Of a stretch of 64,000 nucleotides of DNA, positions 365 through 46,140 are shown in pieces; positions within the stretch are counted from its first letter, which is position 1; the number at the start of each line of letters is the position of its first letter. Where the stretch lies: assembly GCA_030602715.1 (NCBI GenBank), contig JAUVZD010000009.1, positions 1 to 64,000 on the forward strand. Reading direction: 5' to 3'. Source of the DNA: Candidatus Coatesiibacteriota bacterium. GTDB taxonomy: Bacteria; RBG-13-66-14; B26-G2; JAUVZD01. The notes under the pieces were generated by a model. It worked only from the letters and a program-made list of their open reading frames with translations, ran no database searches and was not told where the DNA came from. Made by a program: the position numbers and the translations under genes.

Positions 365-1000
365 TCAGTTGAACAGGGCTTTTACCACGCCCAAGGAGGT
401 GGGTTGAATCGCTGTGGGGGTATATTCTACAGTTAGCTGGAACCCGAAGTCATAATAATAGCCAAAGTCGTCTTCAATGCTATACCATCCGTCGACCAAG
501 TATTCCCAGTCGTTGGTGTCATCGGGACCATCATCCATACAGAGAATATAGTCACTAATATATGGTGGTTCGCCGATAATGCCCAACCCCACACATTGCT
601 CGCCATCTACATCCCAATCAACTTCATAAGTGTTCAGAGTGTCGTCGTCCGCTTCCCAAGTAATGGTTTGATCGGTTAGGTCGTAGGTGTGAGGTATTCC
701 CTCTGGACTACTCTCTTTGTCGGGGAGAAGGATGAGAAAGAGGGCACAGGGACCACTGCCATCCTCACCGGTGTAGTTACCGCTGGCCCAGATACCAATT
801 TCGGTGATTGTGTAGTCTTCACTACCAATGGCAAAGTCAGCCGGGTCAAAAGCTTGTACATAATAGTCGTCATCGGCAGGAAGATTCCAGTAGTAACTGC
901 CCCACGCATCGTAGTAATACCAGGTCTCAGTGGTGGAGAATGCCGACAGGGGCAATACCACTACAATCAACAACATCATTAGAGTATATGCCTTCCACAT
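365..1000 (-). CDS. Secreted protein of unknown function ending in a SLGxxK box
   Basis: A 211-residue protein with an N-terminal signal peptide (MWKAYTLMMLLIVVVLPLSA). The mature part is rich in Tyr, Asp and Trp and looks like an all-beta extracellular domain. No family is recognised. The last residues, IQPTSLGVVKALFN, match the C-terminal box of three other secreted proteins in this window, which suggests a shared sorting or anchoring signal (inference). The start is set by AAAGGAGGAAT just upstream of the ATG, and a promoter with TTGACA lies further upstream. It stands alone between sucD (divergent) and the convergent sorting-domain gene. Confidence 0.75.
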   Translation of the reverse strand: MWKAYTLMMLLIVVVLPLSAFSTTETWYYYDAWGSYYWNLPADDDYYVQAFDPADFAIGSEDYTITEIGIWASGNYTGEDGSGPCALFLILLPDKESSPEGIPHTYDLTDQTITWEADDDTLNTYEVDWDVDGEQCVGLGIIGEPPYISDYILCMDDGPDDTNDWEYLVDGWYSIEDDFGYYYDFGFQLTVEYTPTAIQPTSLGVVKALFN

Positions 1001-1053
1001 AGCTTATTCCTCCTTTAGTTTGGGTTTACATAAAAACTGTTTGAACCATTTTT

Positions 1054-1083
1054 AGAATAGCACATATGGGTTGATTTTGTCAA
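1054..1083 (-). promoter_or_regulatory. Sigma70-type promoter for the secreted 211-aa protein
   Basis: On the minus strand a perfect -35 box TTGACA is followed after 18 bp by TATTCT. The predicted transcript start leaves a leader of about 45 nt with a good ribosome binding site. Confidence 0.6.
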
Positions 1084-1158
1084 TATTTTTTTTGGGCGTT
1101 TTAAAATTTTAACTGAGCTACAAATATATTACTCCATTTCTTTACCCCCCTTTTCCCC

Positions 1159-1187
1159 TTGAAAAGCGGAAGGCTTTGCGATAATAT
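1159..1187 (+). promoter_or_regulatory. Sigma70-type promoter upstream of sucD
   Basis: TTGAAA, 17 bp, TAATAT, with the sucD ATG about 45 bp further on. Confidence 0.5.
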
Positions 1188-1232
1188 CTTCCCTTATCTA
1201 GGAATTATTCGCCGGAGTTTGTGGGAAATCCC

Positions 1233-2099
1233 ATGGCTATTCTCGTAGATGAGAACACCCGTCTGATCGTTCAGGGCATCACCGGCACCGCAGGCTCCTT
1301 CCACGCCAAACGCATGCTCGCCTACGGCACCAACATCGTCGCCGGCACCAGCCCCGGCAAAGGCGGGCAGAATGTGGACGGAATCCCGGTCTATGACACC
1401 GTGCAGGAGTGCGTGGATGAGCAGGGCGCGGATACATCGGTGCTCTTCGTCCCCGCCCGCTTCGTGCTGGATTCCACCCTGGAGGCGCTATCCGCCGGCA
1501 TCAAGCTGGTGGTGGTGGTCCCGGAACATATCCCCATCCACGATATGCTGCGTATCCGCAACTCAGCAAAGGAGCACGGGGCGATGGTCCTGGGTGGAAA
1601 CACCGCAGGCATCATCAGCCCCGGCAAGTGTAACGTGGGGATAATCCCCGAGCTTGCCTTCACCCCCGGACGCATCGGCACCGTCTCCCGCTCCGGCTCC
1701 ATCACCTACTATGTCGCCGATACGCTGACTTCCTGCGGGCTGGGGGAGACCACCTGCGTGGGGCTGGGCGGAGACCCCATCCTCGGCTCCACATTCGGGG
1801 AGGTGCTGGAGCTATTTGAAGAGGACCCCCAGACCGAGGGGGTGGTTCTGGTGGGGGAGATCGGCGGGGTCTATGAGGAGATGTCCGCCGAGACGGTGAG
1901 GAAGATGAGCAAGCCGGTGGTCTTCATCATCGGCGGAGTAAACGCACCCCCGGGCAAGCGCATGGGGCACGCCGGAGCCATCATTGAAGGGGATATGGGG
2001 ACCGCCCGGAGCAAGATAAAGGCTCTGGAGGAGGCGGGGGCGATACGGGCGAAGACATTTTTGGATATACCGAAGATATTTGAGGAGGTTTTGGGATAG
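1233..2099 (+). CDS. sucD: Succinyl-CoA ligase (ADP/GDP-forming) subunit alpha
   Basis: A 288-residue protein matching the alpha subunit of succinyl-CoA synthetase, which with SucC interconverts succinyl-CoA and succinate with substrate-level phosphorylation. Visible features are the N-terminal CoA-binding Rossmann domain (GITGTAGSFH, YGTNIVAGTSPGKGG), the SRSGSITYY and GLGGDPILGS motifs, EIGG, and the phosphohistidine in GKRMGHAGA at residue 246. A GTG at 1221 is possible, but the ATG at 1233 aligns with the usual N-terminus and has TGGGAA in front. Two oddities: the usual GPNCPG loop reads GGNTAG (residues 121-126), and no sucC lies next to it. The beta subunit must be encoded elsewhere, or this is a paralogue acting on another acyl-CoA. 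Confidence 0.92.
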   Translation: MAILVDENTRLIVQGITGTAGSFHAKRMLAYGTNIVAGTSPGKGGQNVDGIPVYDTVQECVDEQGADTSVLFVPARFVLDSTLEALSAGIKLVVVVPEHIPIHDMLRIRNSAKEHGAMVLGGNTAGIISPGKCNVGIIPELAFTPGRIGTVSRSGSITYYVADTLTSCGLGETTCVGLGGDPILGSTFGEVLELFEEDPQTEGVVLVGEIGGVYEEMSAETVRKMSKPVVFIIGGVNAPPGKRMGHAGAIIEGDMGTARSKIKALEEAGAIRAKTFLDIPKIFEEVLG

Positions 2100-2160
2100 G
2101 GGTGTGTCGGTGGTATTTGTCTGGTTTAAGGCAATTGATTATTTCTGAGTGGTGATTGAG

Positions 2161-2754
2161 ATGAGAATAAAGATTTATCAGATGGTTCTGCTCTCTTTAG
2201 CACTAGCGCTGGTCTCCTCCTGCGACTTGCCCCGAGTGGGAGGCGAGGGCGACATCTATCCGGCAAGCGCCGGCAACACCTGGGTATATTACGATGAGGT
2301 TTCCGAGAGAGGACGCACCTTCACCATGTTCGCTCCAGTTCAACACGACGGCGGTTTTCAGGTCTATCCCATAAACATTGAAAGCGATGGATATCTTCTC
2401 CAGTCCATCTATCTCTATCGGGATGATGCGGGGCTTTATTATTATTATAGCCTTCAGTCCACCCCTGACAACCGCTGGCAGTTAGCTGCTTTCCCCCTGG
2501 TTGTGGGAAGCGTCTGGGAGTTTGATTATAGAAGCACGGTGGATTTTAATTTATACCACATTGTCGGCGCCCTGGAGGATGTGGAGAATGTTGAGAGTGA
2601 GGGGACCATCTACAATGATTGTTACCGCATCCACTTCTCAGGAGACGCCAATGAGACCCTGTGGTTCTGCCCCGGGGTGGGAGTGGTCAGGGATATCGGT
2701 CACTCCTCGTATGGTGGTTATATACTGAAACTGGAATCTTACACCCTGTATTGA
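2161..2754 (+). CDS. Putative lipoprotein of unknown function
   Basis: A protein of 197 residues with a lipoprotein signal peptide: MRIKIYQMVLLSLALALVSS followed by the lipobox cysteine (VSSC). The mature part (GEGDIYPASAGNTWVYYDEV...) resembles extracellular beta-rich lipoproteins that begin with a 'PL..GNTW.Y' segment in FCB bacteria; this is a weak resemblance and no function is claimed. An in-frame GTG at 2149 would add four residues before the signal peptide, so the ATG at 2161 is preferred. It follows sucD by 61 bp and could be cotranscribed, though there is no functional link. Confidence 0.75.
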   Translation: MRIKIYQMVLLSLALALVSSCDLPRVGGEGDIYPASAGNTWVYYDEVSERGRTFTMFAPVQHDGGFQVYPINIESDGYLLQSIYLYRDDAGLYYYYSLQSTPDNRWQLAAFPLVVGSVWEFDYRSTVDFNLYHIVGALEDVENVESEGTIYNDCYRIHFSGDANETLWFCPGVGVVRDIGHSSYGGYILKLESYTLY

Positions 2755-2762
2755 TGAACTGA

Positions 2763-2784
2763 CGCCGACCAATTCAGGTCGGCG
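2763..2784. terminator. Hairpin between convergent lipoprotein gene and mazG
   Basis: An 8-bp stem CGCCGACC / GGTCGGCG with a 6-nt loop lies just after the lipoprotein stop. There is no long T-run, so intrinsic termination is uncertain. Confidence 0.5.
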
Positions 2785-2812
2785 GTATATTGTTAGTTTG
2801 GCGTAAAACTGA

Positions 2813-3631
2813 TTATTTCAGGTTCGGCTCGTCCTTGGACTCCTGCCACAATGCTTCCATCTCCTCAAGGTTTGACTGACGGGGCGAGCGGTCGGACTTG
2901 GAGAGCTTTTTCAGCACATAGCCGAAGCGGGCGATGGCTCGCTCGGTGGTATGATTGAGGGCGTCGTGAGGATTGACCCCCAGATGGCGAGCCAGTTGCA
3001 CCAACACGAAGAGCAGGTCCCCCAGCTCGTGCTCAATGGCTTTGGGGTCGTCCCCTTGGTCAAGCTCATTGGTGAGTTCGGTAACCTCCTCGCCCACTTT
3101 GTCCAGCACCTGCCGGGGGTTCTCCCAGTCAAAGCCCAGGTTTGCCATCCGCTCCCCGGCTCGCAGGGCTCTCAGAAGCGGAGGAAGTCCTTTGGGAAGG
3201 GATTTCAACGCCTCCTCTGGCGGTTTGCCCTCGGCTTTAGCCGACTCCCATAACAGCTCCACCTGCTCCGGGTCATCCGCCCGTGCGGAGCCGAAGACAT
3301 GGGGGTGGCGCCGTTTCAGTTTTTCGCTTATGGAGGTGATGGCTTTACTGATGTCAAAACGGCCTTGCTCGTGGGCGATTTGGGCGTGAAAGACCACCTG
3401 TAATAAGATATCACCCAGCTCATCAACCATGTGCTCGTCGTCGCCCTCTTCCACCGCTTCCAGAAACTCATATACCTCCTCCAGTAGATAGCGGCGCAGA
3501 CTGTGGTGGTCTTGAGCGGAGTCCCAGGGGCAGCCGTCGGGAGCCCTCAGGCGAGCCATAAGAGAGCAAAGCTTTGCGAAATCTTTGCCCCACTGGGCGG
3601 TTTTATCGTTTGAATGTTCGTCTTTTTCCAT
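2813..3631 (-). CDS. mazG: Nucleoside triphosphate pyrophosphohydrolase MazG
   Basis: A 272-residue protein with two MazG repeats, as in E. coli MazG (about 263 aa). Repeat one has the metal-binding helices EEVYEFLEA (residues 51-59) and DELGDILLQVVFHAQ (70-84) and then KLKRRHPHVFG. Repeat two has EEVTELTNEL and HELGDLLFVLVQLARHLG near residues 180-210. The family hydrolyses NTPs to NMP and PPi, removing abnormal nucleotides and tuning ppGpp levels. The ATG at 3631 has GGAG five bases upstream. Its start lies only 14 bp from the divergent birA start, so each gene's promoter must overlap the other's coding region. Confidence 0.93.
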   Translation of the reverse strand: MEKDEHSNDKTAQWGKDFAKLCSLMARLRAPDGCPWDSAQDHHSLRRYLLEEVYEFLEAVEEGDDEHMVDELGDILLQVVFHAQIAHEQGRFDISKAITSISEKLKRRHPHVFGSARADDPEQVELLWESAKAEGKPPEEALKSLPKGLPPLLRALRAGERMANLGFDWENPRQVLDKVGEEVTELTNELDQGDDPKAIEHELGDLLFVLVQLARHLGVNPHDALNHTTERAIARFGYVLKKLSKSDRSPRQSNLEEMEALWQESKDEPNLK

Positions 3632-3645
3632 AAAAACTCCGGATT

Positions 3646-4632
3646 ATGAAAGCGACAGTTGAAGAAATCTGCAGGCTCTTTGCCTTCGGTGCAGGATGCA
3701 TTGAAGCGGAGGAGATGAAGGGTCTTGTCGCCCTCCGTGGATGGGGGATGGTGGAACAAGCCCTGGACTATCTCAAGAGGATAGGCTTCTCCTTCAAGGC
3801 GGAGCGGGGAGACTTGCTCCTGCTCGCCACCGGTCCCGATATTACCCCGGAGGCGATCCATGCCCGCACCCATACCAGGGAGTTCGGACGCGGTATTCAT
3901 CACTTCTCGGAGGTGGACTCCACCAACAGTCAGGCCAAAGCTCTCGCTGAGGAAGCGTGTGCCGAGGGGACCCTGGTCGTCTCCGAGACCCAGACCCGGG
4001 GTCGGGGTCGGATGGATAGGAAATGGTTCTCCCCGCCGGGGAAGGGATTGTGGTTCAGTATCATTCTCCGCCCAACGATTGACCCCTCGGAGATTGCATC
4101 GCTCACCCTGCTTACTGCGGTATCTCTGGCTGAGTCGGTTGCAAGCACCTGCGGAGTGACCCCGCTCATCAGCTGGCCCAATGACCTGCTTCTCTCCGGC
4201 AGAAAGCTCGCCGGCATACTGGCGGAAGCCGCCATCACCGATAAGGTCTGCAAGTATGTCATAATGGGTGTAGGTGTGAATGTCAATATCGCCGAAGGTG
4301 GTTTCCCCACCGAACTTGCCCAATCCTCCACAGCACTGCTCATAGAGACTGGAAAAACGCAGGACCGAGCTCTACTCTTGGGCGCTTTCCTCTCCATTTT
4401 TGAGGAGCATTATCTGAACTACATCGCCAGCCTGACCTCCCTGACCGAGTTGCTTGCGGATAAGGAGACCTTGAGGGGTCTGTGGGTGGAGGTGGTGCTT
4501 CCGCCAAAGGAAGGAGAGACCGTTGTGGGGAAGGTGCTGGGATATGGCGAGGACGGGTCCCTGCATCTACAGGACGAGAACGGCAGAGTGCACCACATCA
4601 CCGTGGGAAGCGCTCGCCTGCTCCCCTCCTAA
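3646..4632 (+). CDS. birA: Bifunctional biotin-protein ligase / biotin operon repressor
   Basis: A 328-residue BirA-type protein. The N-terminal 60 residues look like the winged-helix DNA-binding domain (EEICRLFAF...ALDYLKRIGFSFKAERGD). The ligase domain has the biotinyl-AMP loop GRGRMDRKW (119-127), WPND (177-180) and GRKLAGIL with the catalytic lysine (185-192), then a C-terminal SH3-like domain (VGKVLGYGEDGSLHL). It charges acetyl-CoA carboxylase and related carriers with biotin, and may repress biotin genes. The usual KWPND reads SWPND here. No strong ribosome binding site precedes the ATG. The alignment of the HTH region supports this start, although a later ATG at 3715 exists. Confidence 0.92.
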   Translation: MKATVEEICRLFAFGAGCIEAEEMKGLVALRGWGMVEQALDYLKRIGFSFKAERGDLLLLATGPDITPEAIHARTHTREFGRGIHHFSEVDSTNSQAKALAEEACAEGTLVVSETQTRGRGRMDRKWFSPPGKGLWFSIILRPTIDPSEIASLTLLTAVSLAESVASTCGVTPLISWPNDLLLSGRKLAGILAEAAITDKVCKYVIMGVGVNVNIAEGGFPTELAQSSTALLIETGKTQDRALLLGAFLSIFEEHYLNYIASLTSLTELLADKETLRGLWVEVVLPPKEGETVVGKVLGYGEDGSLHLQDENGRVHHITVGSARLLPS

Positions 4633-5624: not shown

Positions 5625-5637
5625 GGCAAGCACTCCA

Positions 5638-6075: not shown

Positions 6076-6097
6076 ATTTATCTATAATTTCTCTGAT

Positions 6098-6772: not shown

Positions 6773-6773
6773 T

Positions 6774-9248: not shown

Positions 9249-11195
9249 TTGCTCAAAAAAATGGCGTTTTACTTTATTGCTTTGGCTTTACTTTTTACCG
9301 CTGCTGTATCGTTCGCCGATGAGTTGGCTTTGGTGCCCATAGAAAGTTACGCCGACGCTGAGAGCATTGCCGAAGTACCTGGTGTGATGGTCATCCGTTT
9401 GCTAGGCGATCGGGCGATTCTTCTAATTGCCGATGACTCCTCAGGGAAAAATGAAATTTCCGATTTACAGATACTTGACCGGAGAGCTGAGGAATTTGAC
9501 TATTGGATGGCTTTTGCTATCACCGAGGAAGCCCGCCAGAAGCTCTATTCTTATGGTAGGGTGGTTTATGAGCGGGAAGCGGAGCGGGGCTGCCATGTGA
9601 TTCTGGCGCTACCTCACGATTTTGATTATAGTCGGATTAACACGCAAGGAATTTTGGGCATTAACCCCCTGCGCAAAGAGAGCGTAGTCATCCCCGAAGA
9701 GACGGAGGGAAGCTGTATCCGTCTTCCTGACGCAGACCCGGATATTCAGGAGATGGTGGACCAGATCAGCCAAGACTCGTTTCTAACCTACGACCAGATT
9801 TTAGAGGATTATGTAACCCGCAACACTTTTACCAATGAAAATGTAGAAGCAGTAAAATGGATTAAAGAGCAGTTTGAATCTTTTGGTCTGTCCGCCGAGT
9901 TGCACAGCTTCCTTATCTCCAGCATTACCCGTTATAACGCCGTCGCTGAACAACCTGGAGTGGTCAATCCGGAGACTATTTATATAGTCATTGGTCATAT
10001 GGATTCCACTGCCGGCGATCCCTTTACACCTGAGCCGGTAGCCCCCGGAGCCGATGATAACGCGTCCGGTTCAGCGACGGTTTTAGAGGTGGCTCGGGTG
10101 CTATCCCAGTATGATTTTGTCAATACCATTCGCTATGTCTGTGTCAGTGGTGAGGAGCAGGGTCTCTATGGCAGTTACTACTATGCCCGGGATTGTTACC
10201 TTAACGATGACAATATCGCCGGTGTGATAAACCTGGACATGATTATGTATGCCCCTCAACCATATGATGTTCTTACTACGTATTACGATTCCCAGTCCAC
10301 GGATTTCACTCAGGACTTTGAAGCCTACGCCGAGTTGTATTCCCCGGAACTGAGTGTGAACCCGGTTTTTGACCCAGAAATGTATTATTCCGACCACGCC
10401 TACTTCTGGTATTACGGTTATGCCGCTTTCTGCGGGATAGAGCAGAGATATTGGGAAAACCCTTATTACCACACCATCTACGACCTGCAGGAAAATTACC
10501 TGACTTATCTTCCTTTCCCCACATTGGTAGCTAAAGGTGTATGCGGAGCCTTAGCCGCTTTTGCAGTTCCCAATGGTACCACACCGATACAGGTGGCTGA
10601 CTTTAGTGCCATTGGTGTAGAAGACGGCATCAAACTCTCCTGGACTGGCGCTTATGAGGAAGATTTGGTGGGCTACAATATTTATCGCACTCCTTTGGAG
10701 TCAGATAACTCTCTTATTGGACTTAATACATATGAACCATCGGATTCGGTCAAGGTAAATTCCTACCCTATCGCAGGACATAGCCCCTACACCTTTCTGG
10801 ATGATACTGCGGTTTGTGGAGTTAAATATGTTTACTCACTAAGACCGGTCTATCTGAGTGTTGAGGGTGATATTTTGGCTCAGACTGAGGGAAGCTTCTA
10901 TGGTGCAGTTACTTTCTCCCTGGAAAAAATCTTTCCAAATCCAGCCGGTGATGTGGTCAACATCTCCTTCATAATACCCCAAGGTCATGATGGGGAGGAG
11001 GTCAGTCTCGTCCTTTATGACCTGAGCGGAAGGCTGGTGGCAAACATCTACACGGCTCCTGCTCTAAGCGGGGAGTATTGTCTTGTGTGGCGGGCGGTAG
11101 ATGATGATGGAGTGGCTTTCCCCAGTGGTTTGTATCTACTGCAACTTTGTTTGGGAAGTATCAGCGAAAGCGGAAGATTGATCCTCTGCCATTAG
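9249..11195 (+). CDS. Secreted M28-family zinc peptidase with type IX-like sorting domain
   Basis: A 648-residue exported metallopeptidase. A signal peptide (ending AAVSFADE) is followed by a pro-region. The M28 catalytic domain has all expected zinc ligands and catalytic acids: IGHMDST near residue 248, GADDNASG near 268, SGEEQGLYGS near 300, NLDMI near 329 and YYHTIYD near 406. After a linker comes a sorting domain from about residue 561 (IFPNPAGDVVNISF, YDLSGRLV, FPSGLYLL). The family removes N-terminal amino acids, so it is probably a scavenging aminopeptidase on or outside the cell surface. It starts with TTG, preceded by AAGGAGG at a good distance. It sits next to a sigma-54 activator gene, with no evident functional link. 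Confidence 0.9.
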   Translation: MLKKMAFYFIALALLFTAAVSFADELALVPIESYADAESIAEVPGVMVIRLLGDRAILLIADDSSGKNEISDLQILDRRAEEFDYWMAFAITEEARQKLYSYGRVVYEREAERGCHVILALPHDFDYSRINTQGILGINPLRKESVVIPEETEGSCIRLPDADPDIQEMVDQISQDSFLTYDQILEDYVTRNTFTNENVEAVKWIKEQFESFGLSAELHSFLISSITRYNAVAEQPGVVNPETIYIVIGHMDSTAGDPFTPEPVAPGADDNASGSATVLEVARVLSQYDFVNTIRYVCVSGEEQGLYGSYYYARDCYLNDDNIAGVINLDMIMYAPQPYDVLTTYYDSQSTDFTQDFEAYAELYSPELSVNPVFDPEMYYSDHAYFWYYGYAAFCGIEQRYWENPYYHTIYDLQENYLTYLPFPTLVAKGVCGALAAFAVPNGTTPIQVADFSAIGVEDGIKLSWTGAYEEDLVGYNIYRTPLESDNSLIGLNTYEPSDSVKVNSYPIAGHSPYTFLDDTAVCGVKYVYSLRPVYLSVEGDILAQTEGSFYGAVTFSLEKIFPNPAGDVVNISFIIPQGHDGEEVSLVLYDLSGRLVANIYTAPALSGEYCLVWRAVDDDGVAFPSGLYLLQLCLGSISESGRLILCH

Positions 11196-24578: not shown

Positions 24579-27500
24579 CTAACCGAATATTTCCTGTCTT
24601 AATTTTAAAGAATAAACATCGCCATCTCTAGTAAAATCCAGAAGTAGATCTGAAATTTCTGCTTTGTGTTCATCGGGTATACCAATTTCCCTGAGTATAT
24701 TACCTAAAGCACTTATTATTCTTTCTCGCAACCAGGGATTTGTAATCAGATTACCACTTGGTCTAGCTGCTATTAATAACAAACCAACACATTTATTTAG
24801 ATACTTTGGGGCATTGTAAACTATGTAATCAATATAACGCCAAGTTAAAAATCCTTGATGAGAAGTAATATCTCCAGATATTCTCACTGCTATTTTTTCT
24901 AGAAATTTTATTATTTTAGGGAATATTTCATTATCCCTATCTAAAATAGGTTTCTTATCACCCATATCATTGTTTAATACTTCAAAACATGCGTCAAAAA
25001 CATCTTTGTCTTCATCATCGGCTAGTTCTAAAAGCAATGAATAGACTCTTGGAAATTTTTTTTCGTCGGTGACTTTAGATGAAAATACTTCAACTGCCCA
25101 TTTTTTGAAGTCGTTATCAGCGGAACCACCTTTAATTCTTGATGTAACTATATTATTGAAATTCTCATCTTCAACATATCTATAAAGACAAAGTTTAAAT
25201 GCTGCTTCTCGCGTTGGTAGGTCTTTAGAATCTAGCAATCGTTCCCAAAATGCTATACTTTCGTTTTTATATTCTGGATATAATGGGCCTGAGAAATACA
25301 TTAAAAAAGGATAAATTACCGATTCATCATATTCCCCTTCTAAATATCTAGTAATAATAATGTCAGCAAGTTCTCTACTTTTTTCCCAAAGATTCCCTAG
25401 ATGCTTTATTGTACAAGCCCGAACAGCAGGATGTGGGTCATTAGATAAAGTTAAGATTTTATCTTTTACTGTTTTATTAGGTCGTATTGTATATAGTAAC
25501 TCTAAACATATTAGTGTATTCCCTCTAACGGAATTATAACCTATTTCAAAGGACCTTAATGGATGATCTACAGAGATTTCATTACTCGGATCAAAGTCCT
25601 CAGAAAATTCTATTAATTCCTTTTCACTATAGTCTAAATCATTATTGTCAAATATACCACTTCTGAGAGTTTTTTCAATACACCTCAATATTTCTATTTT
25701 AATGTTGCTATCTTCAAAATTATCAAAAAAACTACATATCTCAATCATTTTGCTTGTTTCTATATCATGTTTTCTTATAGTGAAAATGAAAGATGAGATA
25801 AATTCCGGATTTTTACATTCCTCACAAACTATTTTTATAATACAATGATATTTTTTAATGTTTTGTGCTATTAATTGTGCTATCTCCCTTCCGAATTCTG
25901 AAACACTATTTTTTAGAAAATCGTAATCACCAACATCGCCAGACATAATTTTCCTAGTTATTTTTTTCAGTTCTTCATTTGTCATATTTTCAAGTTCGGC
26001 TTTTGAGAAAGGGGACGTTACTATTCCCCCTCTTATTTCACCAATAGGGTGGGATGGTTTTAGTGAGTCGTCTATATTGAAATCTTTGTTTAGATTCTCA
26101 ATTACTTCATTAAGTTCATCAGACCTTTCTTCTGTTTTAACAGATTGGATAAGATCAACGTTAAGATAATATTTTCCTGAATCACCATATTTCTCGTAAT
26201 GGTCACTGTGTAAGATGAAATCCAACCATTTTCTTTTTTGCTCATCATTCCAAAACTTATATGCTTCTCTTATCGAATTTTGTAATGCGTATTCGATATG
26301 GCTAAACGTTGCATATTTTTCTGATGTTGCCATCTTAAGAATTTCATATTTGAAAATAGATGGTGCTGCAGACATACCTTCTAGTAGTAAGTATGCGCCC
26401 ATTGCAAAATTACGGTCCAAAAAATCCCTCTTTGTAATACGAATTATCTCAGGGTCACTTTTTACAATTTCTTCTATTAATTTATGTAAAATGCTTATTA
26501 ATAATTCATGTAAATAATGGGCATAGTCTCCTCTTAGTTCTCGTTCACTTGATGTTTTTCCGAAATATAAAAGTTTTGCATATCCTTTTTTATATTCCTC
26601 TTCATTGGAGAATTCAGATTCTGAAGCTATTAATCCTTCATAAGTCAGTCGAAGGAATACAGGTAGAAATATTCTTGGATTTATTTTTAAAATTATCTCC
26701 AAAAAATGCCTAAATGCATGGACATCTACATCTCTTTTTCTTAATATCAATGCATAACCCCAAGATTCGAATAAAAGCGAGCTTTTTATAGGGTCATTTT
26801 CTGCTATTTCTGAAATTAGTTTTAAAATTGTATCGTGAAAAAAATTTTGTGGTATATAAGCGTCTCTTAAACAAATTTCTTTTGTAATATTGAAAGTCCT
26901 TTCGTAAGTATAAATTTTCTTTTCTCTTACAATTCTAATAAAAGTATCTGCATAAAACGGATTTATTTTTGTTATTAACAGAATATATTCTAGGACTTCA
27001 TCTACACTTTGTTCGATGTTTTCTATTAAAAATTCGAAGAATTTCTCTAAGTCTTTTCCTCGTGGTACTTCCTCTATGTATTCATCAAGAATACATTTAT
27101 CAATGTGTGCGAACCAAATTGGTGACTTTATATTTTCTAAGAAAAACTCTATTAGTCTTGGATATGTTTCAAATATTTTGCTAAGCATTTTCCCCTCTTG
27201 GTGCGTTGGTTCCCTTATCTCTGCTAGATAATAAACTAGAGCTAAATTTCCTAAAAAATTTACATTTTCTATATTAATCTCCTTCTCTAGAAGAATGTTA
27301 ATTATATCCCCAGCCTCAGGCGCGATTTCATCAATTATTTTTAGTCCTTCCTGCCAGATTTTCCTTGCTTTATCAATATCCCCTATTTCTTGAAGTAGAT
27401 TTGCATAACTTAGGTATAAAAAATGGTCATCTGAAAAAGCTGTTAAAGCGGCTTCGTAGAAACTACATGCTTTATCATTATTTCCTTTTTCTTTCTCCCT

Positions 27501-27947
27501 TTCTGCTTCTAGGGCTAATTTTACAGCTCTTAAGTGAGCTTCTTGCGCAAAAGAAGGTTTGATTTCTAATTCCGTTTCCTCATCCTCCAATTCTATCAAT
27601 CCTTTTTCTTTTAATTTTAACTGTTCTATTACGGGTGTATCTTGTTCAACAACATATCCCCATCTTGGCAATTTACCTTCTTTGACTGATTTCTTTGTTG
27701 ACTCTCTATGTCCGATTAATTCGCCCTTTGTATATTTTTTCCCTGATGGATGTTCTTGGTCGTACCCCATATCATCATGGCAATCTTGGCATAAAGGAAT
27801 TGCATTATCTATATCGTTTGTTCCTCCATATTTAGGTTTTACAATGTGATGTACTCTAATTTTAACACCTTTAAACTGCTTGCAGATGCAACAGTACCTA
27901 CCCGTTTCGACAAGTAATTGTTCTTCTTCTTTCTTGTTAAATCCCAT
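24579..27947 (-). CDS. HNH endonuclease domain fused to a long TPR/HEAT-like helical repeat region
   Basis: A 1122-residue protein in AT-rich DNA. The N-terminus is an HNH nuclease with structural zinc: YCCIC (19-22), RVHHIVKPKYGGTNDIDNAI (31-50) and CxxCH (53-57). Residues of about 130-230 resemble TPR units (KACSFYEAALTAFSDDHFLYLSY, IGDIDKARKIWQEGLKI). The rest is helical, and its last third has HEAT-like pairs (DPHPAVRACTIKHLGNLW). There is no ATPase motif, signal peptide or membrane helix. I recognise no named family of this build. AGGGG precedes the ATG. It stands alone between the aldo/keto reductase and a radical SAM gene. A nuclease joined to a large sensor-like solenoid in a foreign-looking insert suggests a single-gene defence or mobile-element protein (inference). 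Confidence 0.82.
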   Translation of the reverse strand: MGFNKKEEEQLLVETGRYCCICKQFKGVKIRVHHIVKPKYGGTNDIDNAIPLCQDCHDDMGYDQEHPSGKKYTKGELIGHRESTKKSVKEGKLPRWGYVVEQDTPVIEQLKLKEKGLIELEDEETELEIKPSFAQEAHLRAVKLALEAEREKEKGNNDKACSFYEAALTAFSDDHFLYLSYANLLQEIGDIDKARKIWQEGLKIIDEIAPEAGDIINILLEKEINIENVNFLGNLALVYYLAEIREPTHQEGKMLSKIFETYPRLIEFFLENIKSPIWFAHIDKCILDEYIEEVPRGKDLEKFFEFLIENIEQSVDEVLEYILLITKINPFYADTFIRIVREKKIYTYERTFNITKEICLRDAYIPQNFFHDTILKLISEIAENDPIKSSLLFESWGYALILRKRDVDVHAFRHFLEIILKINPRIFLPVFLRLTYEGLIASESEFSNEEEYKKGYAKLLYFGKTSSERELRGDYAHYLHELLISILHKLIEEIVKSDPEIIRITKRDFLDRNFAMGAYLLLEGMSAAPSIFKYEILKMATSEKYATFSHIEYALQNSIREAYKFWNDEQKRKWLDFILHSDHYEKYGDSGKYYLNVDLIQSVKTEERSDELNEVIENLNKDFNIDDSLKPSHPIGEIRGGIVTSPFSKAELENMTNEELKKITRKIMSGDVGDYDFLKNSVSEFGREIAQLIAQNIKKYHCIIKIVCEECKNPEFISSFIFTIRKHDIETSKMIEICSFFDNFEDSNIKIEILRCIEKTLRSGIFDNNDLDYSEKELIEFSEDFDPSNEISVDHPLRSFEIGYNSVRGNTLICLELLYTIRPNKTVKDKILTLSNDPHPAVRACTIKHLGNLWEKSRELADIIITRYLEGEYDESVIYPFLMYFSGPLYPEYKNESIAFWERLLDSKDLPTREAAFKLCLYRYVEDENFNNIVTSRIKGGSADNDFKKWAVEVFSSKVTDEKKFPRVYSLLLELADDEDKDVFDACFEVLNNDMGDKKPILDRDNEIFPKIIKFLEKIAVRISGDITSHQGFLTWRYIDYIVYNAPKYLNKCVGLLLIAARPSGNLITNPWLRERIISALGNILREIGIPDEHKAEISDLLLDFTRDGDVYSLKLRQEIFG

Positions 27948-29540: not shown

Positions 29541-30329
29541 ATGAAAGCATTAAGTCTAATGGTGGTAGTTGTTCTTTTATCGGCATGTTTTGCTTTTGCC
29601 GACGACCCGGAAAATGTGTTGGTTTACACTGATTGTTATGTTTACAGCTCTGCTGTGGTATCTGCACTGAGTAGTCTGGGGTGGCCCACCAGCGATGTGT
29701 ATTACGCTGACTATACCGGTTTCAACAGCGCAATAGCTGGGGGCACCGAATGGGACATCATTGCAACGGAAGCTTATTACTGGTATTCCTTTTCTTACTG
29801 GGGAGGCAATCTGGACAACTACGTGAACGGTGATTATGGCGGGACAGGTATGGCGGTAGTCTCCACATTTGAAATGGACGATTACTCCAGTCATAGTTTA
29901 TGGGAAGATATGGGCGCTGATTGGGCGGGCGACATCTACTACTCCACTTATAGCGTCTATGTCTGGGATGACACTCATGATATCTTCAATGAGCCCAATG
30001 TGCTGGCTGGACCTTTTAACTGCAACGAGCAAAACTACGTTGATTGTGGCGACAAACATGACGGTTTGGATTCCAAACGCATCGGCGTTGAAGTTGCCGG
30101 TTATACCTCCGATGAACAATCCGGTCAGGGTATGATTTGTATAGGTGAATACAACAGTGAAGATGAACTGGGTCCAACTGTTCTTGCCACTCTGTGCACC
30201 GACATGATGAGCGACCAGACTACCGCTGTTCAGCTTTGGGAGAATATGCTCTACTATGTATGGAACTACGACGTTACCCAAAACGTCCAGCCAGCATCGC
30301 TGGGTGTAATCAAGGCAATGTATCAGTAA
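29541..30329 (+). CDS. Secreted protein, possibly GATase-like fold, ending in a SLGxxK box
   Basis: A 262-residue protein with a signal peptide (MKALSLMVVVVLLSACFAFA). It begins VLVYTDCYVYSSAVVSALSSLGW and alternates strands and helices (IIATEAYYW, GMAVVSTFE), which recalls the class I glutamine amidotransferase-like fold of ThuA-type proteins. The resemblance is weak and no catalytic triad is evident. The C-terminus NVQPASLGVIKAMYQ carries the box shared with three other secreted proteins of this window. AAAGGAGGAGAG precedes the ATG. It stands alone, with its own promoter and a strong terminator. Confidence 0.78.
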   Translation: MKALSLMVVVVLLSACFAFADDPENVLVYTDCYVYSSAVVSALSSLGWPTSDVYYADYTGFNSAIAGGTEWDIIATEAYYWYSFSYWGGNLDNYVNGDYGGTGMAVVSTFEMDDYSSHSLWEDMGADWAGDIYYSTYSVYVWDDTHDIFNEPNVLAGPFNCNEQNYVDCGDKHDGLDSKRIGVEVAGYTSDEQSGQGMICIGEYNSEDELGPTVLATLCTDMMSDQTTAVQLWENMLYYVWNYDVTQNVQPASLGVIKAMYQ

Positions 30330-39507: not shown

Positions 39508-39557
39508 ATTTTAGAGGGATATCTTTCTGCAGTTTATCTTATAATGGGGGTTTGGAT

Positions 39558-42500
39558 ATGAAGAGGATTATGGTTTCTTCGGCGATAGTTATTTTGAGCT
39601 TGCCTTGTGCTTCATCTGCTGAGCAGTGGGAACATAATAATTCTCCCATTAGGAATTTCTCATTTGAGACATACAGCCAGGAGACAGGGTTATTTGATAA
39701 TTGGGTTTATGGTAATCAGTTCATGGATCCGGAGGATTTTGGTCAGGATTTGGCGTATAGCCTTCATTACAGCGCCAGTGCGTATATAAAAGAGACAGAT
39801 ATAGGGCCTGAAGGTAGCTGTTATCTGCAGGCGGGGATTTTAGCTTCCCATGCGAACGATAGGTTTAACGGCAAGCCCTGTTACCTTGTAGCATTTATCA
39901 AATGCAAGAATGTTGAGTCAACTAATGGCGGGGGTGCGTTTGCCGAGATAAGGTTTCCGCCAGGTACTTATGAGACCACTTACACTTCCCCGATGCTGAC
40001 CGGCGACCATAACTGGTGTAAGTTGATCGTTCCATTCCCCTTCCCTCCTTATGAGGGAAGGTTTGATGTTCGTGTAGGTCTTAGGGACGCAACTGGTGAG
40101 GTGTGGATAGACTATGTGCAGATAGTGCAGATGGATACCATGCCGGAGACCATTGTGCTCACCGACTTGGAGAATCCCAGTTTTGACCGCGACCCCTATG
40201 CTTTGTACGGCTGGCCTTCGCAGACGGGAGAAAATACGACCATTGAGGAAGACGATGACAATTCCATGAACGGTCCCAACTCAGCCAAGTTCTACTTTGA
40301 CGTAGTCTCGCCTCCGAGCAACAGAACTTCATTACTTTACCAGGATATAAACACTAACACCCTTCCCTATACCTACTGCGCCTCAGCGTTCGTGAAGACG
40401 GAGAGTCTGCAATATGAGCAAAGCCCCCTCCATCCTGGGGCAAAGATACGAGTTCTCTACGAGGATAAATTGGATTGGTATTCTCAGAGCGTAACCGGCA
40501 CCAACACTTGGATAAAAATCCAGGGCATCTTTGATAAACCTAGAGGGACTTCCGATAGCTTGGAATTGAGGCTGGAGACCCTCGCCTCCTCCGGCACCGC
40601 CTGGTTTGACTGGGTGGCGCTCAAGCTGAACCCCATCCAGAATCCACATTTCAATGACTGGAGCCGGACTGAAGAAGAACCCAACTTGGTTGAATGGGAT
40701 CTGTATCAACTGAGCGGCAATGGTGAAGGGGGCTATACGGCTGAGGAAAGCCACTCCATGCCCTCATGCGGCTATGTGACTAATGGATCTATTGATTATG
40801 ATACGGTTTTGCGACAGTGGCTTTTTTATAGTTTTAGCCCTTCCCTGCGGGAAGGCGCAACCTACTTGGTGACCGGATGGATAAAAACTGTGGGAGTTTT
40901 GCCAAGTGAAGTATCACCCGGGGGTGACCCGTATCCTAATGGTGCATTCGTTCAAATAATAGGTTCCTCTGAAGAAACAAGTTATGAAGACATTGAACTT
41001 GTCCGCACGGAATGTCTTACCGGCAGCAACAACTGGCAAAAATTCTCCCTATGGTTCTCTCTTCCTCTGGACTACTTTATGGATGAAAACGACGGTCTCA
41101 CCACATTTGACCTTTTCTATATTCGCTGCTGCTTGCATTATGCTTCCGGCACAGCCTACTTTGATGACATCAACATCACCGAGCTGGAATCCACCGAGGA
41201 TGTGGCCACAGTCGTCCCCCAGCCCCAAGCCGTTGAATGCCGGGGCTACCACAGCGACCCCCTGGTTACTTTTGACGGCGGGATTGATGCGGTGACCATA
41301 TACTACACCCCCGATGCACTCCCTCATTTGTTTCTGGGTGATACTTATGAGTTCTCCGCCGAGAATCTGCGTCAGGAGCTCAACCGAGCCTTCTATGAGT
41401 GCGAGGGGGATGATGAAGATTATGATAGTGAAGGATGGGAGGGGATTAAGTATGACAATCCAATTGAGGAATACAAAGTGGTAGCTTTAGACAGTAATTT
41501 TATTTCCTTAGAATTGAACAAGCCCTGCATTGTGCTCGGTGACCCTGATAGGGATTTGTCCGTCAATCACCTCTTCCAGGCGGAGCTGGAGAAGCGGGGC
41601 ATAGTCCTACCCGAAGATTTTAACCCCGAGGGCTACATGATGGATATCGGTGAGGATATCATTCTCATCGCCGCCTCAGACCAGGATGGTGCGGGGTTGA
41701 CCAAGGGCGCGGGGAGTTTCTACGGCACCCAGACCCTCCTGCAGTTGCTGGATATTGAGGATAAAGCTAGATTGAAAGTTCCGGGGGAGGATTTTTACCG
41801 CAATACGGTGGTGGCTCCTGCCTGCTACATATACGACTTTCCGGATATGGAGTGGCGGGGGCAGATGACCATTATCGGGCATTGGCTGGAAGATTCGGAA
41901 ACCGATGTTTATCCCGGTTGGCGACTATATATGGAGACAGGATTCTGGGAAGATACCGATAATAATGTGATTCGTAACCAGAAGCTGTTTGCCAAGAAGA
42001 TGGCGAACTTCAAGATGAACCGACTTTCAGCATACTCCATGGTCTTCTTTTTCCTGGAATACGATGTTTTACCGCCTGTAGGTGAACCACAGGTTCCTTA
42101 CGATAAGAACTATGAGTATCTAGAGAGCTTGTTTAACTACTGTCGTAAACTGCACATAGAACCTATACCCATGATGGGTGACTACTACTTCGCCCTTCTG
42201 CGGCACAACGGCAACTGTCTGGAGTATATGATCTATGACAGCGAGTATATAGACGATAATAATCTTCGTCCCGGTCAAGTTGATTATTATGACCCGGTTC
42301 CTGATCAGAATACCTATCCGGTTCCTATGCCCCAGCCTTCCTGGGAGTTTACCATTGGAGAGAGTCTGGAGGAGAGGTATTACTTTGAACAACATAAGAT
42401 TAATGTGTGGGATGAGGATGTGGGAAATGGTGGGGGTCCGGGTTATGAGTTGAAATCCACTCTGGCCTATCGGGTCTGCTACAGGGAGGAAGAGGATGAG

Positions 42501-44483
42501 AATGTTTATCCGATAAGGGTGGAGGAGAAGGTTGACGGTGAATGGGTGGAGTTGGTTGAGGACGAGGATTACGAACTGCAAAATGTGGGTTTGAACACAA
42601 CTATGTATGTGGGCGTAGAGGAGATAGGAACCAGTTATTTACGGCTTAAGGGGGGCGGTTTTTATGGGTATGAGGGTGAGGAGAGGGCTTACATAACATT
42701 TACCGACCTTGAGCAGGGGACCGAGGTGAGGGTATCGTATGCGGCGCCGATAAAGTGGAGTTATATTAATACGGCTGGGGAGGAGCATGCAAAGCCCCGT
42801 CAGCTGGCTTACTGGACCTGTATGAGCTACTTTGACGACGATGGCGACGATTATCTATTTAACGATATACCTGAAGTGGATGAATACGAGCATCTTTCTG
42901 ACGAAGGGTTTGATAATACCGGCGCATGGACCAGCTGGGACAGTCGGGACATCTGGTATGTGGCATTGTATCAGATGATAAACAGGCTAAAGCCCCGGTA
43001 TATAGACATACAGCACTGCGAGCAGTGGTTTATGCACACGGATGACAGGTGTCAGGTGGAGAGGAAGCATGGGGTGAGGGATGACTATTGTGAGGATGAG
43101 CAGTATCCGGTTCGGCTGCTCAGCAAGTATCACAATGCGTTTATCTTAGGGAAGGAGATAGACTGGATGAGGAGGGCCATGGAGGAGATAGACGGCGAGG
43201 AGGGGACGGATACCCGGCTTATGATGTTCGGGGACCAGTTTAACAGCCACAATGGGACTTATTTTGAGGGGCGTTGCTGGTGGGATTGGTATGATGAGGA
43301 GGTGGACCCTTATCATCAGCCGGATATAGATGACGAGAATTGGGAGGGGGATGAGCTGAGCCACGTATATTATCAGCCGGCTATGGGGGGCATGGGTGGC
43401 TGGACCTGGGATTCTTCCCAGATCAAGAATCCTCTGCTGATGGCATCCACATATATTGATGGTAAGGATGATCTGGTGATCGCCGAGTGGGGTTATCAGT
43501 CGGGGATATTTGACGACCGGGAGGGGTTTGAGTATATAGAGTGGAGGGACAAGTATGAGCTGAGGTATGACGAGCTTATTGACCAGGGGTTTACCGATTT
43601 TGTGGGCATGTGCGCCGGGTATGCGGTGATCGGCGGAGAGTGGAGAAGATTGAGGATGAGATGTAGAGATTTTACAGAAGAGGAACCCGAAGATTATTGT
43701 TCACCCGGTCTTGATGGGACCAATCTGAACTGGGTGCAGTTAATCGGGGAGAATATGTCCAAGGAGGAACAGGAGGAGATAGACATCAGATTGTACTTGG
43801 AGACATTTACACGTGATGAATATGAAGGCTGCGGACATTTTGATGAATTTACTGGTGAGGGTTGCCACGTGGGCACGGTTCAGGACGGCTTTGCCTATAT
43901 GGATGATGTGGAGGTAAAGAACAATGAAACGCCTTTGCCGATTCTCAATAAAAGCTTTGAGAATGGCTTATTGGGTTGGACTCAATCTGGACCGGATTAT
44001 GTTACCTGGGAATGGAGCGATGAGGAGAGTCACGGCGGATTGCATTCCTGCAAGCTGGAGATAGACCGAACGGGTTATTATTATAATACACTACCCACAC
44101 ACATTAGACAGGATTACTATGAAGCCCTTCAAACTCCAACTGTGGATTTAGATTTCAGTGTTTATGTGAAGACTATCAAGCTGGACGCCCTGCGCCACTT
44201 AAATCCCAAAATATGGACAGACCTTACCGATGAGTATTATCAGGAGGATGAGATATTGGGGATGATGAGCACCTTCTGGGGGCATGGGGACAGGACATTT
44301 TCCACCGAGCCCAGCAGCGCCGACTGGATGTGGAGCCGGGAGTATCCCCCATCGCCGTTTATCAAGTATTTGCACTACGACCCCTATTTCTTATTTGACA
44401 CTTATAACTTTCATGATGTGGTTAATGAGCCATATCTTGATGGACCGTATCCTAAGGATTTGGAGGAGTTATCGGGTGAATAA
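39558..44483 (+). CDS. Giant secreted GH20-like protein with carbohydrate-binding-type domains
   Basis: An exported protein of 1641 residues (signal peptide ending PCASSAEQ; ATG at 39558 six bases after GGGGGT). Residues 25-550 hold three jelly-roll domains resembling CBM4/9 modules. From about 553 to 765 lies the GH20-type N-terminal domain (VVPQPQAVE, GYMMDIGEDIILIAA, GSFYGTQTLLQLL, DFPDMEWRG). The barrel follows (MANFKMNRLSAYS, YCRKLHIEPIPMMG). Where GH20 enzymes carry the catalytic Asp-Glu in GGDE, this protein has IDIQHCEQ (about 1150), keeping Glu but replacing Asp by Cys. The C-terminus has another carbohydrate-binding-type domain. Its last 74 codons are copied in the tandem duplication downstream. 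It probably binds or cleaves N-acetylated glycans outside the cell; activity is uncertain. Confidence 0.78.
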   Translation: MKRIMVSSAIVILSLPCASSAEQWEHNNSPIRNFSFETYSQETGLFDNWVYGNQFMDPEDFGQDLAYSLHYSASAYIKETDIGPEGSCYLQAGILASHANDRFNGKPCYLVAFIKCKNVESTNGGGAFAEIRFPPGTYETTYTSPMLTGDHNWCKLIVPFPFPPYEGRFDVRVGLRDATGEVWIDYVQIVQMDTMPETIVLTDLENPSFDRDPYALYGWPSQTGENTTIEEDDDNSMNGPNSAKFYFDVVSPPSNRTSLLYQDINTNTLPYTYCASAFVKTESLQYEQSPLHPGAKIRVLYEDKLDWYSQSVTGTNTWIKIQGIFDKPRGTSDSLELRLETLASSGTAWFDWVALKLNPIQNPHFNDWSRTEEEPNLVEWDLYQLSGNGEGGYTAEESHSMPSCGYVTNGSIDYDTVLRQWLFYSFSPSLREGATYLVTGWIKTVGVLPSEVSPGGDPYPNGAFVQIIGSSEETSYEDIELVRTECLTGSNNWQKFSLWFSLPLDYFMDENDGLTTFDLFYIRCCLHYASGTAYFDDINITELESTEDVATVVPQPQAVECRGYHSDPLVTFDGGIDAVTIYYTPDALPHLFLGDTYEFSAENLRQELNRAFYECEGDDEDYDSEGWEGIKYDNPIEEYKVVALDSNFISLELNKPCIVLGDPDRDLSVNHLFQAELEKRGIVLPEDFNPEGYMMDIGEDIILIAASDQDGAGLTKGAGSFYGTQTLLQLLDIEDKARLKVPGEDFYRNTVVAPACYIYDFPDMEWRGQMTIIGHWLEDSETDVYPGWRLYMETGFWEDTDNNVIRNQKLFAKKMANFKMNRLSAYSMVFFFLEYDVLPPVGEPQVPYDKNYEYLESLFNYCRKLHIEPIPMMGDYYFALLRHNGNCLEYMIYDSEYIDDNNLRPGQVDYYDPVPDQNTYPVPMPQPSWEFTIGESLEERYYFEQHKINVWDEDVGNGGGPGYELKSTLAYRVCYREEEDENVYPIRVEEKVDGEWVELVEDEDYELQNVGLNTTMYVGVEEIGTSYLRLKGGGFYGYEGEERAYITFTDLEQGTEVRVSYAAPIKWSYINTAGEEHAKPRQLAYWTCMSYFDDDGDDYLFNDIPEVDEYEHLSDEGFDNTGAWTSWDSRDIWYVALYQMINRLKPRYIDIQHCEQWFMHTDDRCQVERKHGVRDDYCEDEQYPVRLLSKYHNAFILGKEIDWMRRAMEEIDGEEGTDTRLMMFGDQFNSHNGTYFEGRCWWDWYDEEVDPYHQPDIDDENWEGDELSHVYYQPAMGGMGGWTWDSSQIKNPLLMASTYIDGKDDLVIAEWGYQSGIFDDREGFEYIEWRDKYELRYDELIDQGFTDFVGMCAGYAVIGGEWRRLRMRCRDFTEEEPEDYCSPGLDGTNLNWVQLIGENMSKEEQEEIDIRLYLETFTRDEYEGCGHFDEFTGEGCHVGTVQDGFAYMDDVEVKNNETPLPILNKSFENGLLGWTQSGPDYVTWEWSDEESHGGLHSCKLEIDRTGYYYNTLPTHIRQDYYEALQTPTVDLDFSVYVKTIKLDALRHLNPKIWTDLTDEYYQEDEILGMMSTFWGHGDRTFSTEPSSADWMWSREYPPSPFIKYLHYDPYFLFDTYNFHDVVNEPYLDGPYPKDLEELSGE

Positions 44484-45205
44484 GAATGGTTAAGGAAAAA
44501 AAGAGAGGTGAGATTAATGAGGAAGATAATAATTATCAGCATAGTTTTGCTGACACCGCTGGGTGTTTTCGGAAACGAGGTTACCATCCAGCCGGGTCCG
44601 GAGATAGGTCAGGATACTTATGGTGCCCAGGTTTATCCAGATGAGAATTATGGTGATTTAGAATGGATGTCAGCAGGGATTACAGTATTCTCCTTTCTAC
44701 GCTTTACCCAGCTGGACGAATACATCGGTTATGAGATTACCTCGGCGACATTAAGGATTTGGGTTTTCATGGCAAGCGATGGGACTAGATATTTTTACCG
44801 TGTGTTGGGACCCTGGGATGAGGACACATTGACCTGGAACAATCAGCCGTCACATTCCAGCACCGAATATGTTTACTATCATTTCCCGGAAGTGGATTTT
44901 GCTTCAGATTTTAATATAGATGTGACCTGGATGGTGCAGGAATGGCTCAATGGTGATTGGGATAACTTCGGCTGGTGCATAAGGGATTATGGATTTCTAA
45001 TCTCATTTGCAACAAGTAATTCAACCGATCCTGGCGCTCGACCATCATTAATCTTAGAAGGACCCGACCTGCCGGAGGTTGGGGTTCAGCCCACATCGTT
45101 GGGGAAGATAAAGTCGCTCTTTACGCCCCAGTTGGAATATTCTGGTGGGGGTGGTCGTATCGGTCGCCCGGCGCCCCATAGGAGCTGGATGATGGGGCTC
45201 AGGGG
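44262..45205 (+). repeat. Tandem duplication, unit 1
   Basis: About 944 bp running from codon 1569 or so of the giant protein to the end of the first DNRLRE-type gene. It is followed without a gap by a second copy at 45206. The two copies are nearly identical at both ends and differ in the middle. Confidence 0.88.
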
Positions 45206-45209
45206 ATGA
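44517..45209 (+). CDS. Secreted DNRLRE-type domain protein, copy 1
   Basis: A protein of 230 residues from the ATG at 44517 (AGAGGTGAG upstream; GTG at 44508 is inside that site). A signal peptide (KIIIISIVLLTPLGVFG) precedes a jelly-roll domain with the DNRLRE/CBM96-like pattern: PGPEIGQDTYG, PDENYGD, FLRFTQLDEYIGYEITSATLRI, WDEDTLTWNNQP, VTWMVQEWLNG and FGWCIRDY. Such domains bind polysaccharides or act as structural modules on surface proteins. Near the C-terminus is VQPTSLGKIKSLF, the shared box, here followed by 26 more residues with a Gly-rich stretch. The gene follows the giant protein by 33 bp and is probably cotranscribed with it. Confidence 0.82.
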   Translation: MRKIIIISIVLLTPLGVFGNEVTIQPGPEIGQDTYGAQVYPDENYGDLEWMSAGITVFSFLRFTQLDEYIGYEITSATLRIWVFMASDGTRYFYRVLGPWDEDTLTWNNQPSHSSTEYVYYHFPEVDFASDFNIDVTWMVQEWLNGDWDNFGWCIRDYGFLISFATSNSTDPGARPSLILEGPDLPEVGVQPTSLGKIKSLFTPQLEYSGGGGRIGRPAPHRSWMMGLRG

Positions 45210-45427
45210 TGAGCACCTTCTGGGGGCATGGCAACAGGACATTTTCCACCGAGCCCAGCAGCGCCGACTGGATGTGGAGCCGGGAGTATCCCCCATCGCC
45301 GTTTATCAAGTATATGCACTATGACCCTTATTTCTTGTTTAATACCTATAACTTTCATGATGTGGTCAACGAACCATATCTTGACGGACCGTATCCTAAG
45401 GATTTGGAGGAGTTGTTGGGTGAATAA
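45206..45427 (+). pseudogene. Duplicated C-terminal fragment of the giant GH20-like protein
   Basis: A 73-codon frame that repeats residues 1570-1642 or so of the giant protein with only about five replacements (for example GHGNRTF for GHGDRTF and FNTYNFH for FDTYNFH). It has no signal peptide and arose with the tandem duplication. It keeps its frame, and its ATG overlaps the stop of the preceding gene (ATGATGA), so translation by coupling is possible although no function is implied. Confidence 0.75.
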
Positions 45428-46136
45428 GAGTGGTTAAGTAATAAAAAAGAGAGGTGAGATTAATGAGGAAGATAATAATTATCAGCATAGTTTTGCTGGC
45501 ACCGCCTGGTGTTTTCGGAAATACGGTGTACATAGAGCCGGGTCCGGAGATAGGTCAGGATACTTATTCTTATGTTGGTGAACCCGATGAGAATTACGGG
45601 GACAGAGGATGGATGTTAGCGGGGGTTGAAGGCTACGCGTTTCTTCGCTTTACCCAGTTGGACGAATACATCGGCTATGAGATTACCTCGGCTAACTTGT
45701 GTATTGATATTACCCTTGATTATCCTTCGACATGGTATTTTCATCGTGTTTTAGAGCCCTGGGATGAGGACACATTGACCTGGGCAAATCAGCCGCCCCA
45801 TTCAGATAGCGAATACTGCTCGGAAAGTGCGTATGTAGATGATTTTACTATGGTCATAGATGTGACCTGGATGGTGCAGAACTGGGTGGATGAGGAATGG
45901 GAGAACTTCGGCTGGTGTATAAAGGGCCCACAGACATTGGTAATATACACTAGTAATAGCGGCTGTGTTTGTCCGATGCTTTACTTAACAGGACCCGACC
46001 TGCCGGAGGTTGGGGTTCAGCCCACATCTTTGGGGAAGATAAAGTCGCTCTTTACGCCCCAGTTGGAGTATTCTGGTGGGGGTGGTCGTATCGGTCGCCC
46101 GGCGCCCCACAGGAGCTGGATGATGGGGCTCAGGGG
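45206..46136 (+). repeat. Tandem duplication, unit 2
   Basis: The second copy of the 0.94-kb unit (about 931 bp). It repeats the last 74 codons of the giant protein, the spacer and the whole small secreted-protein gene. Confidence 0.88.
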
Positions 46137-46140
46137 GTGA
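45463..46140 (+). CDS. Secreted DNRLRE-type domain protein, copy 2
   Basis: A protein of 225 residues from the ATG at 45463 (AGAGGTGAG upstream). The signal peptide (KIIIISIVLLAPPGVFG) and the last 45 residues (VGVQPTSLGKIKSLF plus the Gly-rich tail) are nearly identical to copy 1. The central domain differs at many positions but keeps PDENYGD, FLRFTQLDEYIGYEIT, WDEDTLTW and VTWMVQNWVDEEWENFGWCI. The pattern of identical ends around a diverged core suggests either selection on the core or gene conversion of the ends. Confidence 0.82.
   Translation: MRKIIIISIVLLAPPGVFGNTVYIEPGPEIGQDTYSYVGEPDENYGDRGWMLAGVEGYAFLRFTQLDEYIGYEITSANLCIDITLDYPSTWYFHRVLEPWDEDTLTWANQPPHSDSEYCSESAYVDDFTMVIDVTWMVQNWVDEEWENFGWCIKGPQTLVIYTSNSGCVCPMLYLTGPDLPEVGVQPTSLGKIKSLFTPQLEYSGGGGRIGRPAPHRSWMMGLRG

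Follow-up and report, generated by a model that had tools for sequence, protein, structure and literature searches.

A short C-terminal tag on exported proteins of a Candidatus Coatesiibacteriota bacterium and other little-studied bacteria resembles an address label not described before, with the type IX secretion machinery as its probable reader

The window, a stretch of 64,000 nucleotides (64 kb) of contig JAUVZD010000009.1 from a Candidatus Coatesiibacteriota bacterium, encodes four proteins with a common short box at or near the C-terminus. The earlier note on this DNA had located four such boxes, and all of them were present; the box of the 211-aa protein was confirmed, whereas its gene had to be reassigned to the minus strand. 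As that note had proposed, the protein types shared essentially the box alone, save for two DNRLRE paralogues that were 69% identical to each other. The features are as follows.

365–1000, minus strand: secreted protein of 211 aa, family unknown, no Pfam match, ending in the tag.
368–409, minus strand: C-terminal tag of the 211-aa protein, IQPTSLGVVKALFN-stop.
29541–30329, plus strand: secreted protein of 262 aa with the tag at its end; VLLSAC/FAFA-DD at the N-terminus could also be read as a lipobox.
30285–30326, plus strand: C-terminal tag of the 262-aa protein, VQPASLGVIKAMYQ-stop.
44508–45209, plus strand: DNRLRE/CBM96 protein of 233 aa (NF033679, PF24517), in which 27 residues separate the box from the stop.
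45084–45125, plus strand: tag VQPTSLGKIKSLFT of the first DNRLRE protein, no longer terminal.
45126–45206, plus strand: 27-residue tail of the first DNRLRE protein, which stop loss relative to the paralogue L022 would explain.
45454–46140, plus strand: tandem DNRLRE/CBM96 paralogue of 228 aa (NF033679, PF24517) with the same arrangement.
46015–46056, plus strand: tag VQPTSLGKIKSLFT of the second DNRLRE protein, no longer terminal.
46057–46137, plus strand: 27-residue putative stop-loss tail of the second DNRLRE protein, identical to the first.

The DNRLRE gene at 44508–45209 was listed with a GTG start; 9 bases further in, at 44517, there is an ATG. A third DNRLRE paralogue, L022, is located elsewhere in the genome and ends ...SLGKLKAIFAH-stop. 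In the aligned codons, L022 read TTT GCC CAC TAG and the window copies TTT ACG CCC CAG. Because L022 has TAG where the window copies read CAG, the simplest reading of the tail is that a stop codon was lost and the loss was copied by tandem duplication; both copies of the duplicated region (44508–46140) carry the same apparent loss and the same 27-residue tail.

In the 2.31-Mb source genome, P[TA]SLGxxK searched as a DNA pattern gave 23 matches, compared with 6 for the reversed control. All but one of these matches lay 12–13 codons before a stop, or 39 codons in the stop-lost pair; the exception, L003, was a 25-aa frame of no interest. The stop-anchored pattern Gx[IV]Kxh[FY]x gave 22 matches in the whole genome and 1 in the control; 21 of the 22 ended at genuine stops, and the remaining one was a TGG caught by TRR. 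S-[LFV]-G stood upstream in all 21 genuine-stop matches, although the pattern made no such demand. An out-of-frame variant gave 21 matches versus 15, with no clear enrichment. The genome yielded a list of approximately 30 tagged proteins, in which the tag closes the chain at the C-terminus; nearly all of them have a signal peptide, and their bodies are diverse. The box is real, far above chance and larger than the earlier note described, and the C-terminal enrichment expected there held.

The consensus tag consists of 12 residues, P-x-S-L/W-G-x-I-K-A-L-Y-R, and is common to dozens of otherwise unrelated exported proteins. A fuller form of 12–13 residues is [VI]-x-P-[TA]-S-[L/F/W]-G-x-[I/V]-K-A-[L/M]-[F/Y]-[R/K/x]-COOH, and the tryptophan version is P-[ST]-[ST]-W-G-x-I-K-A-[LM]-[YF]-R. 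Across 130 proteins, the positions were occupied by P (−12), T/A/S (−11), S/T (−10), W/L/F (−9), G (−8), I/V (−6), K (−5), A (−4), L/M/I (−3), and Y/F (−2). Lysine at −5 occurred in all tagged proteins of the logo set, where the search patterns required it; positions fixed in this way are invariant by construction, since the patterns demanded them. The unbiased features are W in the matches of the stop-anchored scan of 290 genomes, S and L/F/V in the stop-anchored matches of the source genome, and the terminal R/K. The last of these, which the patterns did not require, was found at −1 in 59 of 65 W-type tags (91%) and 41 of 65 L/F-type tags (63%). The chain ends one residue past F/Y, and the tag has neither a transmembrane helix nor a basic cluster. 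Because a single beta-propeller family has both the L and the W forms at the same site, we regard them as one tag. None of the Pfam and NCBIfam models matched the tag in the proteins scanned. In open-access papers, we found no description of the tag and nothing on the motif or on type IX secretion (T9SS) in Eisenbacteria, Zixibacteria, or Krumholzibacteriota.

Among 61 genomes, class-mates of the source bacterium (f3 and f4) had 39–67 P[TA]SLG-type matches per genome, with 0–1 in the control, and f5, another family of the phylum, had none. When the stop-anchored pattern was applied to 290 genomes, the counts per genome were 12–113 in the class, 8–54 in seven families outside the phylum, and 0–4 elsewhere, with a weak signal of 0–7 in the phylum-mates f5. 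A named scan of 84,980 species, with one genome per species, placed the tag in Coatesbacteria, Eisenbacteria, Latescibacterota, Krumholzibacteriota, Zixibacteria, Fermentibacteria (Fermentibacter-type), and Delongbacteria. In most tags of the other-phylum assemblies W replaced L, and the W version was found in the last six groups named. Judged from these sequence matches, the carriers of the tag are the source bacterium and several groups of the Bacteroidota (FCB) superphylum that have received little study. The earlier suggestion that the signal belongs to this lineage was too narrow, since the tag spans several phyla.

The 138 complete tagged open reading frames (ORFs) fell into 55 unrelated body clusters. 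The box co-occurred with signal peptides, a check that the earlier note had proposed: a signal-peptide-like start was present in 111 of the 138 tagged ORFs (80%) and in 213 of 681 untagged ORFs of the same loci (31%; p = 6e-27), the calls being made by a home-made rule under which several of the tagged failures were truncated or masked ORFs. This contrast is conservative because the untagged controls include fetched secreted proteins with a T9SS C-terminal domain (CTD). Tagged proteins were smaller than CTD proteins, with median open-frame lengths of 269 and 683 residues, respectively. Lipobox-like starts were found in only three of the 138, one of which was P0001, and a reading of the tagged proteins as outer-membrane lipoproteins was rejected on account of this rarity.

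A small Fn3-like tagged protein was represented by six orthologues from four GTDB families (L201:6336–6767, L202:10010–10456, L203:10019–10414, L204:9781–10182, L205:2763–3155, and L206:10163–10555). Their bodies were 26–37% identical to the first sequence, whereas the final 10 residues (TWGSIKA[ML]FR) were invariant at nine positions. In the AlphaFold model of a tagged beta-propeller, the mean pLDDT was 90; the body reached approximately 97, and the tag (residues 308–321) fell below 50 and was detached as a short helix. The DNRLRE protein was modelled poorly (pLDDT 49.5), with a helix over the tag. Because the tag was nearly invariant on diverged Fn3-like bodies and the propeller model left it outside the domain, we conclude that the tag is a separately selected appendage that does not belong to a domain. 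Its role as a targeting signal is highly probable; the short sorting, processing, or anchoring signal of the earlier note agrees with a peptide that is C-terminally anchored, linked to signal peptides, carried by unrelated bodies, and appended to a folded domain. In several T9SS genomes belonging to other families, the Fn3-like secreted protein is apparently the only one with a tag, and it may form part of the machinery. Among the neighbours of this single-copy gene, none was conserved across phyla.

The tag was compared with known C-terminal signals. Type A T9SS CTDs (PF18962/TIGR04183), especially their motif E, resemble it in being C-terminal on varied Sec-exported bodies, dozens per genome, and in having a lysine near the end, hydrophobic residues, and a basic last residue; T9SS genes are also present. 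However, these CTDs comprise 70–100 residues with an Ig-like fold, whereas the tag has 12–13 residues and no such fold, and its P-x-S-[LFW]-G core is absent from them. A CTD profile built from the source genome matched none of the 138 tagged ORFs and 39 of the 681 untagged ones, no alignable homology between CTD and tag was found, and the tagged proteins of the window gave no Pfam match to PF18962/TIGR04183. The type B CTD (PF13585) is comparable to the proposed tag as an alternative C-terminal signal with an alternative shuttle, but type B and type C CTDs, with PorP/SprF shuttles, are about 100 residues or more, and neither type matched the tagged proteins of the window. The PEP-CTERM/exosortase, GlyGly-CTERM/rhombosortase, MYXO-CTERM, and LPXTG/sortase systems likewise mark many secreted proteins of unrelated kinds with a short signature at the C-terminus. 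Their signals are tripartite, with a motif, a transmembrane helix, and a basic tail, whereas the tag lacks the last two elements and ends the chain; no LPXTG-like motif followed by a helix and a basic tail was found in the tagged sequences. The tag works like a C-terminal sorting signal and is by definition not a T9SS CTD, PEP-CTERM, GlyGly-CTERM, or LPXTG signal.

The source genome encodes SprA (G000:C3; TIGR04189, 240 bits with a cut-off of 200) and has 11 PorV-family, 7 C25, and 35 T9SS CTD matches; tag-rich genomes had 20–66 CTD matches each. In the sample of 290 genomes, SprA was encoded in 20 of 20 tag-rich genomes, two of which were missed by the Pfam model and recovered with a lineage alignment. 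The hypergeometric probability of this nesting was 5e-12 by genome and 2e-5 by family with the source phylum collapsed, statistics that correct only partly for shared ancestry. The presence of T9SS does not predict the tag, since 66 SprA-positive genomes of the sample were tag-poor, and both may simply be features of the FCB superphylum. Counts of SprA, PorV, and C25 did not separate tag-rich from tag-poor genomes; PorV-family copy number was rejected as a marker of tag use because it was not discriminating, and C25 peptidases because they were present in 28 of 28 genomes, tag-poor ones included. A non-systematic look did not reveal tagged genes to be linked to those for shuttles. Many of these T9SS genomes have a greatly expanded set of PorV-family barrels, with 11 matches in the source genome, up to 37 in G058, and only 3 in G216.

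In assembly JALGZP01, L197 ends in the tag, and its relative L179 (768 aa) has a T9SS CTD at that end instead. L197 matched the body of L179 and, as a second case, that of the CTD protein L159 from another assembly (E ~1e-26). Such alternation on related bodies is as expected of exchangeable C-terminal signals. Because all tag-rich genomes have T9SS and related bodies alternate between tag and CTD, the two may share one machine. The view that the box is unlike the type IX sorting domain was correct for sequence and fold, but these two associations set a limit to it.

We favour the reading that the tag acts on its own as a minimal C-terminal signal of the T9SS type and that a PorV-like shuttle reads it, because, according to published work, what is essential in the CTD lies at its extreme end and the shuttles differ in the signals they read. 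The last 13 residues and the lysines of motif E are required, 22 residues of the CTD can be enough, and there is contact between motif E and PorV (PMC10202324, PMC11285876). RgpB lacking its two C-terminal residues stays in the periplasm (PMC11285876), and different T9SS shuttles read different signals (PMC12618676). In the favoured mechanism, the mostly small tagged proteins would be exported by Sec with removal of the N-terminal signal peptide, and a receptor, periplasmic or located at the outer membrane, would bind the exposed tag. The likeliest receptor is one of the PorV-family shuttle barrels, which occur in multiple copies. The protein would then leave through SprA and be released or attached, possibly with C-terminal processing by a C25 (PorU-like) peptidase. 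One short peptide would thus do the job of motif E, which ends the CTD of 70–100 residues. Against a T9SS reading, the tag was modelled weakly as a helix, whereas motif E is a beta-strand, and we put the chance that the tag depends on T9SS at about even.

The main rival is a separate sorting or docking system in which an amphipathic C-terminal peptide is recognized by a dedicated receptor (an outer-membrane scaffold, a periplasmic scaffold, or a processing peptidase) and T9SS merely co-occurs. The sequence and predicted helix of the tag, unlike those of the CTD, the coexistence of tag and CTDs in every tag-rich genome, the many T9SS genomes without the tag, and the genomes that seem to keep the Fn3-like protein alone, as if for one fixed partner, all point in this direction. 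That the tag-rich genomes all fall within the SprA-positive set, and that tag and CTD alternate on related bodies, argues against it, and no candidate receptor was found. We hold only tentatively that many phyla of the FCB superphylum might have an undescribed pathway that has a dedicated receptor, does not depend on the T9SS CTD, and reads the 12-residue peptide, and such a separate system has an appreciable but lesser chance of being correct.

Recognition by a membrane transpeptidase or protease of the exosortase, sortase, or rhombosortase type is suggested by the C-terminal place and the many substrates per genome, but a chain that stops one residue past F/Y, with no transmembrane helix or basic cluster, makes this most unlikely. 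The earlier note had advised looking for one protease or transpeptidase gene with the same phyletic pattern, and none was found among the exosortases and C25 peptidases, the families screened: exosortase is absent from the source genome and exceeded the cut-off in only 5 of 28 genomes, and C25 is shared with tag-poor genomes. Exosortase-type sorting was rejected on both tag anatomy and gene absence. Periplasmic proteases of the Tsp/Prc type typically recognize a hydrophobic free C-terminus, so a retention or degradation tag would suit the end of the peptide. It is nevertheless very doubtful, as each genome would be consigning some 30 to more than 100 different exported proteins to destruction, the last residue is usually basic, and internal residues are conserved. 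Least probable of all is a structural end-cap or last strand of one shared domain with no signalling role; many tagged bodies are beta-rich, but the 55 unrelated clusters and the place of the tag outside the folded propeller speak strongly against its being part of any single known domain.

The tag thus has the look of a new address label for which the type IX secretion machinery is the probable reader. It provides a listing, from sequence alone, of exported proteins in many uncultured phyla, most of them without a family, and a terminal peptide of 12 residues would be a convenient handle for display or export. If T9SS reads it, the signal would be far smaller than known CTDs and would help define what the translocon or its shuttles recognize; otherwise, there is a secretion or sorting system still to be discovered.

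Several minor observations were made. In the single-contig class-mate G005, two halves of SprA lie approximately 1.2 Mb apart (C1:245139–246932 and 1412588–1414723, L236), which reflects either a misassembly or a split translocon. In the window, the M28 peptidase at 9249–11195 (plus strand) has a weak T9SS-type CTD. The 1122-aa protein at 24579–27947 (minus strand) combines an N-terminal HNH nuclease domain (a partial IscB-like match) with TPR and HEAT-like repeats, an unusual architecture. Directly 5' of the tagged DNRLRE pair, 39552–44483 (plus strand) encodes a 1643-aa protein with only a weak Glyco_hydro_20b match. The FG-GAP protein at 60425–62449 (minus strand) has an ordinary T9SS-type CTD (FlgD_ig/Por_Secre_tail) and ends in SSARKLVLYR, which recalls the final LYR of the tag.
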